From the NCBI RefSeq assembly GCF_001368915.1, contig NZ_CSTE01000004.1, forward strand, positions 124,001 through 188,000: DNA of 64,000 bases, read 5' to 3'. Numbering within the stretch: position 1 is the first letter of the stretch; each line of letters begins with the position of its first letter. This stretch comes from Haloferax massiliensis. Lineage in GTDB: Archaea; Halobacteriota; Halobacteria; Halobacteriales; Haloferacaceae. Position numbers and translations under genes: made by a program. Below the pieces are notes generated by a model. That model saw only the letters and a list, made by a program, of their open reading frames with translations, made no database searches and was not told the DNA's origin. Positions 13,672 to 24,664 of the stretch are shown piece after piece.

Positions 13672-13874
13672 GGTGTATCGTCGAAGAAGAATTCCGACGG
13701 ACTGAGACAAGTTATGGAGTGTGTCTCAGAAAGCCACGGGGGAGTCGGCTTGAACTCTGTCGAGGGGGGAGTAGACGGCTCACCGCTTTCACATTGACGG
13801 GCGTTACAGCATCCGGTGACAAAGAGACAACTCATTAATAGCTACAGTACGTCTGGTTGTCAAGTAAAATTGTC

Positions 13875-15233
13875 ATGCCACTCTTAGACGATTTCTCCGG
13901 ATTCGAATTTGAAGACCTGATGGAGGACGTTTTTCGGAATCTCGGGTATGAAAACGTCCATCAGGCACGCAAAACCGCCGACGAAGGACGAGATATCCTC
14001 ATGGAGGAAGTCGTCGACGGGACACGCCGTGGAGTTGTCGTCGAGTGCAAACACACAGGCTCTGTCGGACGACCTGTCGTCCAGAAGCTCCACTCAGCCA
14101 TCGCGACGTACGACTACGATGGCCCAAAGCGTGGTATCGTCGTCACGACAGGACAATTTTCTGCACCCGCCGAGGAGTACGCGACTCGCCTTAGACAGAA
14201 CGGCGATCCATATCCAATTGAGCTCATCGACGGTACCGACCTGAGAGACATCGCCGACGAAGTCGGCTTGGACCTCTATAACGGCCGCATCGAGATTCTC
14301 TGTAACGAAACACTCCGACCGTTCGATCCAGCAAGCGGCGTTGATGCACCAGTACGTGAAGCAGCCCGTGACATCCAAAATCTCGACGCAGACACACTCC
14401 CGGAACCACACAAGCTCGTTGACTTCCAGCCCTATCTCACGATTAGTGCACGAACAGACGCTGTCTTCGAAACCTCAGTCGGTGTCATCCACCGCATCAA
14501 CGAATCAAACCGCTTCGTCATCCATGCAACACGAGGAGAACCCAGCATCGCAGACAGCCGTCTCGCAGACCTCATCGCGAACAACGGCCAGCAAGCAGTC
14601 GAACTCGATTCCGACCGCTTCAGCACGATGTTCGACGACGTCGACGTCACTCGCTACGGGCAGACAGAAACCGACTACAAAGAGTGGGCAGTCTCTCGTC
14701 TCCAGCGACATCACACGACGACTGTCACCTACACAGGAGGCAACAATGTCACCTACGAGAAGAAGTGTGAGCCGAAGCAATCGGATATCTCTGTTCAAGC
14801 CATCTCACCGCTCTACGTCCCACGGGTTCGACAGACACTGCAACTCCAGCAGTACACCTATCCGTACTCGTACTACGCTGCAGGACCCTCCCGAGTAGCC
14901 ATTGAAGACGGAATTCATCGCTGCGTCCACTGTGAGAAAGAAAACGCGAAATCGTACACTTACTGCGCAAATTGTGGGAGCATCAACTGTGGCTCGCACA
15001 TCAAAACGGAACGTCTCGAAGGCACCCCAGTCTGTACGGGCTGTGCAGTCACCGAGAGATTTGTGCTGAAAACGAAGTACTTCTACGACGAGGAGAATCT
15101 CGAAGAATTTCGTTCAGAATACGAACAGATGGCCCTCCACGAGAAAGCAATGGAGAATACACCACTCGTTGGTGGTCTTCTCGTCAGCGTCGTACTCTTA
15201 CTTGGGTTCATTCTTACGTCAGGAGTTGTCTAG
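13875..15233 (+). CDS. Mrr-type restriction endonuclease with zinc ribbons and membrane anchor
   Basis: 452 residues from ATG 13875; a TTG at 13857 is possible. The N-terminal ~130 residues form an Mrr-like PD-(D/E)xK nuclease: FEFEDLMEDVFRNLGYENVH, then DEGRDILMEE and VVVECKHTGSVG, where Asp, Glu and Lys form the catalytic set. A middle region of about 200 residues is unassigned. Near the C-terminus, CVHCEKENAKSYTYCANCG and CGSHI...VCTGC are zinc-binding pairs, followed by one membrane helix (LVGGLLVSVVLLLGFIL). Mrr proteins cut modified or foreign DNA; a membrane-tethered form is unusual. Confidence 0.8.
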   Translation: MPLLDDFSGFEFEDLMEDVFRNLGYENVHQARKTADEGRDILMEEVVDGTRRGVVVECKHTGSVGRPVVQKLHSAIATYDYDGPKRGIVVTTGQFSAPAEEYATRLRQNGDPYPIELIDGTDLRDIADEVGLDLYNGRIEILCNETLRPFDPASGVDAPVREAARDIQNLDADTLPEPHKLVDFQPYLTISARTDAVFETSVGVIHRINESNRFVIHATRGEPSIADSRLADLIANNGQQAVELDSDRFSTMFDDVDVTRYGQTETDYKEWAVSRLQRHHTTTVTYTGGNNVTYEKKCEPKQSDISVQAISPLYVPRVRQTLQLQQYTYPYSYYAAGPSRVAIEDGIHRCVHCEKENAKSYTYCANCGSINCGSHIKTERLEGTPVCTGCAVTERFVLKTKYFYDEENLEEFRSEYEQMALHEKAMENTPLVGGLLVSVVLLLGFILTSGVV

Positions 15234-19816: not shown

Positions 19817-22800
19817 ATGACACACTCAAATCGGCGGAAGACACGGACCGAACAGTCACCCGATAGTCGGCTCACACCGACGCGACGGCAGTTCTTGCAG
19901 GCGACCGGAATGGCTGCAGTAGCCGTGGGGGTTAGTTCACAGTCCGGTGCCGCGGCAGCGACGAATGCGCCAAGCGCCCCGGGTCGAATCTCGAACCTCG
20001 CGGCGTACCTCGAAGACCCCGAGAAAGTCGCGGAGAACGTCGAGCCGACTCACGTCACGAGCGCCGTTCCCTACGAGTCCGTGCGCGCTGCTCGGACGGC
20101 GGACGAGCCGTTTACGGAAATCGAATCGCGATTCGCGGAGTCGGAGTACGTCCAACTACTCAACGGGGAGTGGCAGTTCGCGTTTCACGGGAAGCCTGCC
20201 GACGTTCCCGACTCGTACGACGGCCTTGCGAGCGACGAGTGGGGCTCGATAGACGTCCCCGGTGTCTGGCAGACGCAGGGGTACGGCGAGCGGATTTACG
20301 CGAACAACGCCATCACGTGGGAAGCCTACGAACCGAATCAGGACGGCGATTTGGTTCCAAACGAGGACGGGACCGTCGACGTTCCGGGCGTCGACGACGA
20401 CGGCCTCAACCCCGTCGGCACGTACCGGCGGTCGTTCGCAGTTCCAGAAACGTGGGACGGGCGTGAGACGTTCCTCCACTTCGAAGGCGTCAAGCAGGCC
20501 TTCTTCGTGTGGGTCGACGGCGAGTACGTCGGCTTCCGGACGGGGTCGATGACGCCCGCCGAGTTCGACGTCAGCGACCACGTCGAGGCCGGAGGAGACC
20601 ACCAGGTCACGGTTCAGGTGTACCACTGGTCCGACAGCGAGGCGCTGGAGACCATCGACATGTTCCGGTACGCCGGCATCTTCCGGAGCGTCTACTTGTT
20701 CGCGACGCCGGCGGTACACCTCAGGGACTTCTACGCGCGCACCGACCTCGACGACGACTACGAGGACGGCGAACTTCGTATCGACGCCGAGATAGCGAAC
20801 TACGGCGATGCTCCGGCCGGGGAGTACGTGGTTCGCGCGCACCTCTACGAGACCGCCCGCACGAAACCGGGCCGCGGACCACCGCGCGGAAAAGGTGCGA
20901 ACGCGGCAGGCGGAAACGGCGGGAAGGAAAAGGGGAACGAGGCATCCCGGAGCCGCGGCCCGCCGGACGACGCGGGTCCCGGCGGCCGGCCGCCCCGCGG
21001 GCGTAAGGTCACGACTCTCTCGTCGACCGCGACCGTGGACGAAAACGGTGCGGTGGTCTCGCTCGATGCCGACGTACCGAACCCCGCGAAGTGGTCGGCC
21101 GAACAGCCGAACCTCTACCAGCTCGTGTTGGAACTCGTACCCGCGGGCGGCACGCCAACGGAGGCGATGCTGGAGAAGGTCGGTTTCCGGACCTACGAGA
21201 CGACCCGCGGACGACACGGTGCCGAGGTTCTGGTCAACGGTGAGTCGGTCGATATTCAGGGCGTGAACCGCCACGAGACCGACCCGGACTTCGGGCGAAC
21301 GGTCCCGATCGAGCGCGTTCGGGAGGACATCGAGACGATGCGGCAGTTCAACATCAACGCGGTCCGGACGTCCCACTACCCGAACGACCCGTCGTTGTAC
21401 CGACTCGCGGACGAGTACGGCCTCTACCTGCAGGACGAAGTCTGCGTCGAGTCCCACTGGTGGCAGGGACTGCTCGCCAACACCGAAGTCTACCACGACC
21501 AGGCGGTCGCGCAGTTCCGCCGAATGGTGCTTCGAGACCGCAACCACGCCTCGGTCTTCAGTTGGTCGACCGGCAACGAGGCGGGGACCGGTGCCGAGCA
21601 CATCGAGATGGCGTCGCTCGCGGCCGACTCTGACGAGTTCATCCCCGAGGATACCGCCGATGTCAGCGGCGTCGAGACCGTCGAGTCGTTCGACGGGGAC
21701 GTAGAGGGGGTAGCCCCTGACCGCATCCTCTATCACCAGCCGAACGGCGGCGGCTGGAACGTCGAGTACAGCGACATGCTCGGGCCTCGGTACGCCGATA
21801 TCGGTACCTTGCTGTCGGTCGGTGACGGGTCGTACATCGGCGACGGGCTCCGCCCCGTAGTGATGGGCGAGTACAACCACGCGATGGGCAACAGTCTGGG
21901 GCTCGTACACGAGATGTGGAACGAGTACATAAAGCCGCCCGTCCGGGAGGCGACTGACCGGACGGGGTCCGAGAACCCCGGCGTGCTCGTCGGTTCGCCG
22001 GCTGTCGTCCCCGGACCGGACGCCGCACCGGGAGGCAACACCGACGGAGCCATCGAACTCGGCGCGGGCGACGCGATCGAGATTCGACGCGACGCCGAAC
22101 TCGAACACGGCGGCGAGTTCACGGTCGGCGCGACGATTTCCGTCGACGAGGGGACCGCAATGGACGCCGACGTTCCCATCGTCGTCGACGACGGCAGGTA
22201 CGCGCTGGCGGTTTCGGACGGCGAAATCCAGTTCTCGGTCGGAGGCGGTGAGAGCACGGTCTCAGCTCCGGTCCCCGACAGTGGTCTCGACGGCTGGACG
22301 ACCGTCGTCGGCGTCGCCGATTCCACCGAGCTCGAAATCTACGTCGACGGCGCGCTCGCGGGCGAGTCGAGTCACACCGTCTCGGGCCTTCGCGCCGGGG
22401 AGGAGCCGATTCGAATCGGCGGCGAGGCCGCCCTCGCGGTCGACGGCCTCGGCATCTACGACCGCGCTGTGAACTCCGACGAGACGAGCGATGCCGATGG
22501 CGAACTGAGGGACGGCGCAACCGTCGCGTACGATTTCGCCGACCTGCTGCGAGACAAGAGTCTCGTCGGCGGGTTCATCTGGGACTGGGTCAACCAGGAC
22601 CTGAACGACACCGCGGCGGACGGCGAGGCGTTCCAGTTCTACCACAGCGACGGTCCCGACGGGGCGTTCTGTCTCAACGGATTGGTCTGGTCCGACAGAG
22701 ACCCACAGCCCGAGCTGTGGCAACTCAAACACTGCCACCAGCCGGTCGGTGTCGCCGACGCCGACGTCGCGGCGGGAGAGGTGTACATCTCGAACCGGTA

Positions 22801-24664
22801 CAACTTCACGTCGCTCGACGGCGTCGAGGGGCGGTGGGAACTGACCGCCGACGGCGAACCGCTCCGCTCCGGTGACTTCGGTGTCGACATCAGCCCGGGA
22901 GAGACCCGCCGCGTCAGCCTTCCCGTCGAAGCGCCGTCCAATCCCGGGGCCGGCGTCGAGTACCGACTGACGGTGCGGTTCACGCTGGCGGAAAGCACCA
23001 CGTACGCCGATGCCGGCCACGAAATCGCGTTCGAGCAGTTAGCGGTTCCCGTCGACGCGCCCGAACCGGAGACCGCGTCACTCGATTCGATGGGGCCGCT
23101 CTCGGTCGACGAAGGCGGCGATATCACCGTCTCCGGTGACGGCTTCGAGTACGTCGTTGCTGACGACGCGGGGACGCTGTCGTCGATGGCGTACGAGGGA
23201 ACCGACCTACTCGAACGCGGCCCGCTGTTCAATTCGTGGCGCGCCCCGGTCATGAACGAGATTCAACAGTGGGGGAGCGCCCCCGCGCTCTCGTGGTACG
23301 AGGCGGGGCTCGACGAACTGACGCACTCCGTCGAGTCGGTCGGCGTCGAGCGCCGCGACGAGTCGCTCGTCGAGGTCGCAGTCGAGGGCTTCGCCGAAGG
23401 CGCTGAGCCGGCGCGTCGGCTGGCGACCCCGGACCGCTCCGAACACGACAACGACGGCGTACTCACGGGGGAGGCCGGAATCGTCACCGGTGCCTCCGGG
23501 CAAGCCGTCGAGTTCACCGACGACGGCTCGCTCTCGCTGGGGCGGTCCGAGAGCCTCGACGTCACCGACGCGGGACTCACAATCGAGTTCTGGGTCCGCC
23601 CCGGCGAGCCGCAGGAGGGTGGCGCGGCGCAGGTCTACGTCTCGAAGGGCGGACGGCAGTATCTCCTCAAGCGCCGCGAGAGCGGTCGTGACGGGTATCT
23701 GGAGTTCGTGTTCAACGCCGACGGCTGGCACGTCGCCGACGGGCCGGTGCCGGACGACTGGGCGGGTGGCTGGCACCACGTTGCGGGCGTCTGGGACGGC
23801 AGCGAGATGACGCTGTTCGTCGACGGGGAGCGACTCGGAACCGGGTCCTACGAGGGGACGCTTCAGCACGTCGACGCGCCGACGCAGGTCGGGTCGAGCG
23901 TCGCCGACGGTACCGCGCTGGACGAGGTGCGAATCTACGACCGCGCGCTCGCCGAGGACGAACTCGGTTCGCTCGCCGCGGACACACCGCTCGACGGCGC
24001 TGTGGCGTGGTTGCCGCTCGACGAGTTCAACAGTGTCGGGGATGCGAACGGCCCGGGCTTCGCCACCAGCTACCGCTACCGCATCTACGGAAGCGGCGAC
24101 GTAGCTCTCGATGTCGAGGCCCGTCCCAACGAGGGGCTTCGCGAGACGGTAGACGGCTGGCTTCCGAAAGCCGGCGTCCAACTCGAACTCCCCGAGCGAT
24201 TCGACGACTTCGAGTGGTACGGACGCGGCGAACTGGAGACCTATCCCGACCGCAAGTGGGGTGTTCCAATCGGCCGCTACGAGGGAACCGTGGACGAACA
24301 GTACGTCCCGTATCTCCCCCCGACCGACAACGGGAACAAGGCACAGACGCGGTGGGCGACGCTCTCGGACGGTGAGGTGTCGCTCCTCGGAACGTTCGGC
24401 GAGGGGAACGCCAACGTCAGCCTCGAACAGTGGGCGAATCTCGCGGCGGCCGAACACCAGTACGAACTGGAGGACCGCGGGTCCGTCGGGTTCAACCTCG
24501 ACCACCGCGTGACCGGCCTCGGCGGAACGCCGACCGAGCCGCTCGACCGGTATCAGGTCCCGGTCGAGTCCACCGCGTTCAGCGTCGTCCTTCGGCCGTT
24601 CGATTCCGACGACGACGATCCGATGGCGCTGGCGAACCGACGGCTCCCCGACCCGCAGGAGTAG
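19817..24664 (+). CDS. Exported GH2 beta-galactosidase-like enzyme with two inserted LamG domains
   Basis: 1615 residues against about 1000 for LacZ. A Tat signal (TPTRRQFLQATG, residues 21-32) lacks a lipobox, so the enzyme is secreted. Order: GH2 sugar-binding domain (about 100-300), Ig-like domain carrying a Gly/Arg/Pro-rich insert (about 348-397), then the TIM barrel. The barrel has GVNRHETD, the acid/base Glu588 (STGNEAGTG) and nucleophile Glu685 (VMGEYNHAMGNS). A LamG/concanavalin-like domain (about 720-910) sits between Glu685 and GGFIWDWVNQ (Trp922). The C-terminal beta-galactosidase small domain holds a second LamG (about 1218-1395). It probably cleaves beta-galactosides or related polysaccharide ends outside the cell. 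Confidence 0.92.
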   Translation: MTHSNRRKTRTEQSPDSRLTPTRRQFLQATGMAAVAVGVSSQSGAAAATNAPSAPGRISNLAAYLEDPEKVAENVEPTHVTSAVPYESVRAARTADEPFTEIESRFAESEYVQLLNGEWQFAFHGKPADVPDSYDGLASDEWGSIDVPGVWQTQGYGERIYANNAITWEAYEPNQDGDLVPNEDGTVDVPGVDDDGLNPVGTYRRSFAVPETWDGRETFLHFEGVKQAFFVWVDGEYVGFRTGSMTPAEFDVSDHVEAGGDHQVTVQVYHWSDSEALETIDMFRYAGIFRSVYLFATPAVHLRDFYARTDLDDDYEDGELRIDAEIANYGDAPAGEYVVRAHLYETARTKPGRGPPRGKGANAAGGNGGKEKGNEASRSRGPPDDAGPGGRPPRGRKVTTLSSTATVDENGAVVSLDADVPNPAKWSAEQPNLYQLVLELVPAGGTPTEAMLEKVGFRTYETTRGRHGAEVLVNGESVDIQGVNRHETDPDFGRTVPIERVREDIETMRQFNINAVRTSHYPNDPSLYRLADEYGLYLQDEVCVESHWWQGLLANTEVYHDQAVAQFRRMVLRDRNHASVFSWSTGNEAGTGAEHIEMASLAADSDEFIPEDTADVSGVETVESFDGDVEGVAPDRILYHQPNGGGWNVEYSDMLGPRYADIGTLLSVGDGSYIGDGLRPVVMGEYNHAMGNSLGLVHEMWNEYIKPPVREATDRTGSENPGVLVGSPAVVPGPDAAPGGNTDGAIELGAGDAIEIRRDAELEHGGEFTVGATISVDEGTAMDADVPIVVDDGRYALAVSDGEIQFSVGGGESTVSAPVPDSGLDGWTTVVGVADSTELEIYVDGALAGESSHTVSGLRAGEEPIRIGGEAALAVDGLGIYDRAVNSDETSDADGELRDGATVAYDFADLLRDKSLVGGFIWDWVNQDLNDTAADGEAFQFYHSDGPDGAFCLNGLVWSDRDPQPELWQLKHCHQPVGVADADVAAGEVYISNRYNFTSLDGVEGRWELTADGEPLRSGDFGVDISPGETRRVSLPVEAPSNPGAGVEYRLTVRFTLAESTTYADAGHEIAFEQLAVPVDAPEPETASLDSMGPLSVDEGGDITVSGDGFEYVVADDAGTLSSMAYEGTDLLERGPLFNSWRAPVMNEIQQWGSAPALSWYEAGLDELTHSVESVGVERRDESLVEVAVEGFAEGAEPARRLATPDRSEHDNDGVLTGEAGIVTGASGQAVEFTDDGSLSLGRSESLDVTDAGLTIEFWVRPGEPQEGGAAQVYVSKGGRQYLLKRRESGRDGYLEFVFNADGWHVADGPVPDDWAGGWHHVAGVWDGSEMTLFVDGERLGTGSYEGTLQHVDAPTQVGSSVADGTALDEVRIYDRALAEDELGSLAADTPLDGAVAWLPLDEFNSVGDANGPGFATSYRYRIYGSGDVALDVEARPNEGLRETVDGWLPKAGVQLELPERFDDFEWYGRGELETYPDRKWGVPIGRYEGTVDEQYVPYLPPTDNGNKAQTRWATLSDGEVSLLGTFGEGNANVSLEQWANLAAAEHQYELEDRGSVGFNLDHRVTGLGGTPTEPLDRYQVPVESTAFSVVLRPFDSDDDDPMALANRRLPDPQE

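Follow-up and report, generated by a model that had tools for sequence, protein, structure and literature searches.

The window analysed here, a stretch of 64,000 nucleotides from Haloferax massiliensis, carries an open reading frame (ORF, positions 19817-24664, plus strand) for a LacZ-type GH2 enzyme of 1615 amino acids, in which Pfam recognizes two nested LamG domains. All features of this gene are given on the plus strand of the window. A twin-arginine (Tat) export signal is predicted at residues 21-46 (19877-19954; NCBIfam TIGR01409, 19.3 bits against a cut-off of 16.7), followed by the Pfam domains GH2_N, GH2, GH2_C, LacZ_4 and Bgal_small_N, all present in this order and over their cut-offs. 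The sugar-binding domain 1 (PF02837) covers residues 114-298 (20156-20710), the best stretch of domain 2 (PF00703) residues 394-458 (20996-21190), and LacZ domain 4 (PF16353) residues 990-1078 (22784-23050). GH2_C and Bgal_small_N are each split into two stretches. The catalytic TIM barrel (PF02836) begins with residues 470-703 (21224-21925, profile positions 7-227) and is resumed behind an insert at 22535-22747 (146535-146747 of contig C4, profile positions 224-300, including Trp922), and the second part of domain 5 comprises residues 1416-1592 (24062-24592). The closest relatives found, from Haloferax prahovense and H. gibbonsii, are 89% identical. None of the named beta-galactosidase models listed from NCBIfam reached its cut-off; Bga2A did best, with 681 bits versus 999.

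Both splits are occupied by a match to Laminin_G_3 (PF13385), with a total of 127.1 bits against a cut-off of 27.6. LamG 1, in the barrel, spans residues 706-912 (21932-22552; Pfam, models and fold matches), and its copy alone scored 54.5 bits in a genome search (C4:146061-146483, window 22061-22483). A preliminary description of the locus had already recognized a LamG-like domain inside the GH2 barrel; its span of 21978-22545 does correspond to residues of about 721-910, and the borders given here describe the whole insert better. LamG 2, which was absent from that description, lies in domain 5 (Bgal_small) at residues 1206-1410 (23432-24046; Pfam, genome search and alignment) and reached 84.8 bits against the same cut-off.

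The columns of the catalytic and metal sites (E142, H144, E185, E282, H285 and W519) are invariant in 13 of 13 aligned rows. After E. coli LacZ, we take E185 to be the acid/base and E282 the nucleophile glutamate, with E142 and H144 at the Mg site; column E282 corresponds to Glu685 (21869-21871). Judged from these residues, the catalytic machinery of the enzyme is intact. The gap of 237 residues between Glu685, within the nucleophile motif VVMGEYNHAMGNS, and Trp922, within FIWDWVNQ, proved to be exact, and the motifs on both sides of the insert are preserved as previously described. Among 80 aligned GH2 rows (after removal of duplicates, short pieces and matches below 600 bits), the same distance is 31 residues in all 35 rows without an insert. 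A model of residues 404-1590 with both inserts is of middling quality (pLDDT 69.4, pTM 0.65) and matches LacZ structures over the full length, with TM-scores by target of 0.60-0.65 among the 50 matches listed, in line with a host that is still LacZ-like. The enzyme thus shares with the LacZ proteins of E. coli and Thermotoga maritima (6sd0) the five domains in order, the catalytic motifs and the fold of residues 404-1590, but differs from them by two nested LamGs and a Tat signal.

Modelled alone with AlphaFold on an alignment of 21 nested LamGs, residues 706-916 form a separate domain (pLDDT 82.2, pTM 0.83), nearly all beta, which answers a structural question raised in the preliminary description. 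The fold is concanavalin-like, with matches to the pentraxin PTX3 (Z 16.8), AbnA (Z 16.5) and BACOVA_03559 (Z 16.2). The top match was a clostridial neurotoxin binding domain (Z 17.6); we attribute it to the jelly roll in common, and no other sign of a toxin was seen.

The position of LamG 1 relative to the active site can be deduced from the order of the barrel elements. In the model, strand b7 (residues 681-683) is followed by Glu685, helix a7 (697-705; 21905-21931; DSSP, H294-302) immediately 5' of the insert, LamG 1, and strand b8 (916-921; 22562-22579; DSSP, E513-518) immediately 3' of it. In a TIM barrel, helix-to-strand loops lie on the N-terminal face and the active site is formed at the C-terminal ends of the strands. 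Since the insert is placed between a7 and b8, and not in a strand-to-helix loop of the C-terminal face, LamG 1 would hang from the face opposite the active site, as far as its spatial orientation can be read from the model. The idea that the domain stands over the active site, where it would shape or feed the substrate cleft, does not agree with this topology. Such an arrangement does occur in the family: in 18 of the 80 rows the b8-a8 loop, which belongs to the active-site face, holds a LamG right after b8. However, the insert of the window precedes b8 and is rooted on the opposite face, and we consider a location over the active site very doubtful for this enzyme.

In the following, site A denotes a LamG before b8, in the a7-b8 loop, and site B a LamG right after b8. 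Site-B LamGs were found in KSB1, Bacteroidetes, a planctomycete and Paenibacillus (L014-L020, L022, L025) and likewise in the haloarchaeal loci L013, L021 and L028 (Haladaptatus, Halocatena). The context is GGFIWDWVNQ followed by the LamG, or GGYIWMWNQ followed by the LamG in the second GH2 gene of the H. massiliensis genome (L008 5944-10992, minus strand, contig C4; 1683-aa open frame), which has LamGs in domain 2 and at site B. All four Laminin_G_3 matches of the genome fall in its two GH2 genes. Furthermore, domain 5 of L114 and L120 contains two LamGs in tandem, which belong to the two different phylogenetic kinds described below, and L134, L138, L139 and L140, of another GH2 type, have a tandem pair close to the beginning of domain 1. 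Nested LamGs are present in at least five loops of GH2 enzymes. Some peculiarities were observed along with these genes. In L013, L021 and L028 the GH2 gene consists of two ORFs split after domain 4, and two of the three records annotate two proteins there. A site-B enzyme in L136 (3457-7218, minus strand) shows Arg and Ala in the columns of the nucleophile and the b8 Trp; it may be inactive or misaligned. The C-terminal part of the L008 enzyme appears ricin-type by eye. Domain 2, which holds a LamG in this paralogue, has in the window protein a Gly/Pro/Arg-rich insert (20852-21004, residues 346-396 approximately) that is probably disordered.

A PF02836 profile search of 391 Halobacteria genomes gave a match at E 1e-10 in 71 of them. 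The site-A signature, an ORF of 1372-1791 aa in which the GH2_C match ends near profile position 224-229 or before it, was detected in 27 ORFs from 23 of the 391 genomes, and an insert was confirmed in all of them (26 relatives and the window protein), with 186-223 residues between the host matches. The search for other GH2 enzymes with an insert at this loop, which had been suggested at the outset, was therewith successful. In one site-A row (L122) the LamG reached only 19.6 bits with a custom profile. The annotation of relatives on named haloarchaeal plasmids, for example in Halostagnicola larsenii, Haloterrigena turkmenica and Halalkalicoccus jeotgali, is merely that of GH2 TIM-barrel proteins.

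For the host phylogeny, five long-branch bacterial rows were removed from the 80, and the resulting tree of 75 rows was built without the columns around the inserts and rooted at the midpoint. A first tree was dropped and rebuilt in this way because it used the columns near the inserts, where some site-A rows were misaligned. In the final tree the 27 site-A rows, a set partly different from the 27 ORFs with the site-A signature, form one clade within the Halobacteria (bootstrap/SH-aLRT 100/99). It adjoins five insert-free haloarchaeal rows and lies within a clade of 47 rows, of which the remaining 15 are all of site B. As the site-A clade is located inside a clade that is otherwise site B or insert-free, site B probably preceded site A in this lineage, on a tree rooted only at the midpoint. 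Because the five insert-free rows adjoin the site-A clade, a loss with later regain fits equally well.

In a tree of the LamGs themselves (90 rows), one clade (SH-aLRT 97) unites 23 of the 26 site-A modules; the remaining three branch off basally in a larger clade that includes it. The site-A modules are not nested within the site-B modules, and the tree does not demonstrate that the LamG jumped from B to A. Two kinds can be told apart among the domain-5 modules, ten grouping with site-A modules and eight, including that of the window, with site-B modules. A tandem ancestor followed by loss of either copy would explain these two kinds. It is conceivable, and we put it forward only tentatively, that the nested LamG switched barrel faces in one lineage, from after b8 to before b8, a duplication in tandem and a loss around b8 being a possible route. 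LamG units with permuted strands, able to form tandem arrays with ambiguous borders, might in this case be a general means of module gain in at least five loops of haloarchaeal GH2 enzymes.

The strand order of the nested modules was compared with that of free-standing haloarchaeal LamGs. The latter begin with a strand resembling GLVgYWPLDE, followed by D-x-S-G-x-N-D-G. Nested LamGs start at this second segment and have a similar strand at the C-terminal end, e.g. AVLWYDFDE; the matches of most inserts to the free-standing profile start around its position 20-40, past the first strand, and no N-terminal W-x-(F/L)-D-E strand was found ahead of their D-x-S-G segment. When the tail strand was moved to the front, mean gains of 4.4 bits (A, n=24), 3.3 bits (B, n=5), 4.2 bits (D2, n=2) and 7.4 bits (D5, n=12) were obtained, and the score exceeded all 15 shuffles in 11 of 43 modules, with about 2.7 expected. 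With a strand matrix, applied to 66 modules (72 minus six that are second in a tandem), the C-terminal flank scored above the N-terminal one in 57 (shuffled mean 40.5, at most 47), but only 17 of the 66 C-terminal flanks exceeded 95% of their own shuffles. A doubled-sequence test with the host flanks kept showed a gain for a single module among the 43, and a profile-profile comparison did not discriminate, as one of three shuffled controls scored above. Structural alignments with PTX3, pappalysin and BACOVA_03559 run through the tail strand, for pappalysin-2 also by sequence. Taken with the moderate evidence from the sequences, these alignments make it likely that the first strand of nested LamGs has moved to the C-terminal end. 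For LamG 1, the strand at residues 903-906 (22523-22534; model and strand tests) probably corresponds to the strand with which free-standing LamGs begin. The permuted order itself is not new, because PTX3, pappalysin and BACOVA_03559 align through this strand, and pentraxins and pappalysin have the same order. The LamGs of PTX3 and pappalysin are alike in fold (Z about 16-17) and, by the tail-strand alignments, in an edge strand supplied from the C-terminal end, whereas the sequence similarity is weak; to our knowledge they are not nested in a glycosidase.

Both LamGs are under purifying selection. Compared with the Haloferax loci L009 and L010, LamG 1 shows 74-76% identity and a dN/dS of 0.17-0.22, versus 90-95% and 0.04-0.11 in the rest of the protein, with about 0.06 for LamG 2. 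Against the more distant L118 the values are 0.44 for LamG 1 and 0.96 for LamG 2, the latter from a comparison of modules of different kinds. No other part of the protein changes as fast as LamG 1, and the demands on its role may therefore be loose.

In glycosidases, accessory binding modules are usually found at a chain end. Each LamG of this enzyme is anchored to its host at both ends and is therefore fixed, unlike such modules. Our favoured reading, which we regard as fairly probable, is that of a Tat-exported exo-glycosidase of the LacZ type with two nested, lectin-like accessory LamGs that would hold it on a polymeric glycan. After export, LamG 1 in the a7-b8 loop on the far face and LamG 2 in the domain-5 loop would keep the secreted enzyme on the polymer, and the active-site pocket on the other face would remove terminal sugars, cut from the held glycan or a neighbouring chain. 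Alternatively, the nested domains could be structural, setting or blocking an oligomer interface or bracing the enzyme in brine without binding any glycan. Their fixation at both ends, the retention of the same site across the 27-row clade and the rapid sequence change of LamG 1, which suits a scaffold, are in agreement with this. However, five close and 22 more distant insert-free haloarchaeal enzymes manage without the insert, and two different kinds of LamG can fill the domain-5 loop, and we judge a purely structural role to be rather unlikely. It is improbable that the inserts are tolerated, nearly neutral passengers: their sporadic occurrence and a dN/dS of LamG 1 above that of the host parts would suit this explanation, but dN/dS is well below 1 in the close Haloferax pairs, no stop occurs within any of the 27 ORFs and the insert was kept through a clade spanning several haloarchaeal families.

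A LamG inside GH2 enzymes is known: a Laminin G3 domain between GH2C and DUF4981 was described for some GH2 proteins (PMC5145203). These are LacZ-type enzymes thought to be secreted, as here, and the passage on them mentions neither a position within the barrel nor the strand order; their LamG is most likely at site B, whereas the window protein combines site A with domain 5. Among the results listed in searches of the open-access PMC literature, neither a LamG located before b8 or in domains 1, 2 or 5 nor the strand order came up. The GH43 arabinanase AbnA of Geobacillus stearothermophilus (5hp6) is likewise a glycosidase with a concanavalin-like accessory domain, proposed as a new CBM (PMC9110388). 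This Domain4 is strung among several domains and not nested in a barrel. The LamG-type module is nested in five loops of one family, with close relatives that lack it, carry it on either face or have two in tandem. With this natural set of variants one can ask which positions of a binding module are of use to a glycosidase, and also how a TIM barrel still folds when a whole domain has been inserted next to its last strand.

Growth of haloarchaea on beta-1,4-galactan has been reported, with GH2 beta-galactosidases listed among the haloarchaeal CAZymes (PMC9726719). In support of the favoured reading, genes beside the relatives encode GH43-ricin, GH3-CBM6 and GH97 proteins with a sugar ABC transporter, in other cases alpha-L-fucosidase, L-rhamnose mutarotase and a sugar ABC transporter, and in further ones GH115 and glucuronate genes (mannonate dehydratase, KDG kinase). 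Among the neighbours examined in the window, these glycan genes are not found beside the GH2 gene, which speaks against the favoured reading. Here, a sugar ABC transporter, a GH15-like protein and TrmB are encoded about 9-17 kb upstream, and an HpcH/HpaI-family protein and an IclR regulator downstream. In H. prahovense (L009 13892-15637), a GH43 gene with a ricin lectin lies 3' of the gene, in the place of the HpcH/HpaI-family gene of the window. A protein of the Mrr-type restriction endonuclease family is encoded at 13857-15233 of the window.
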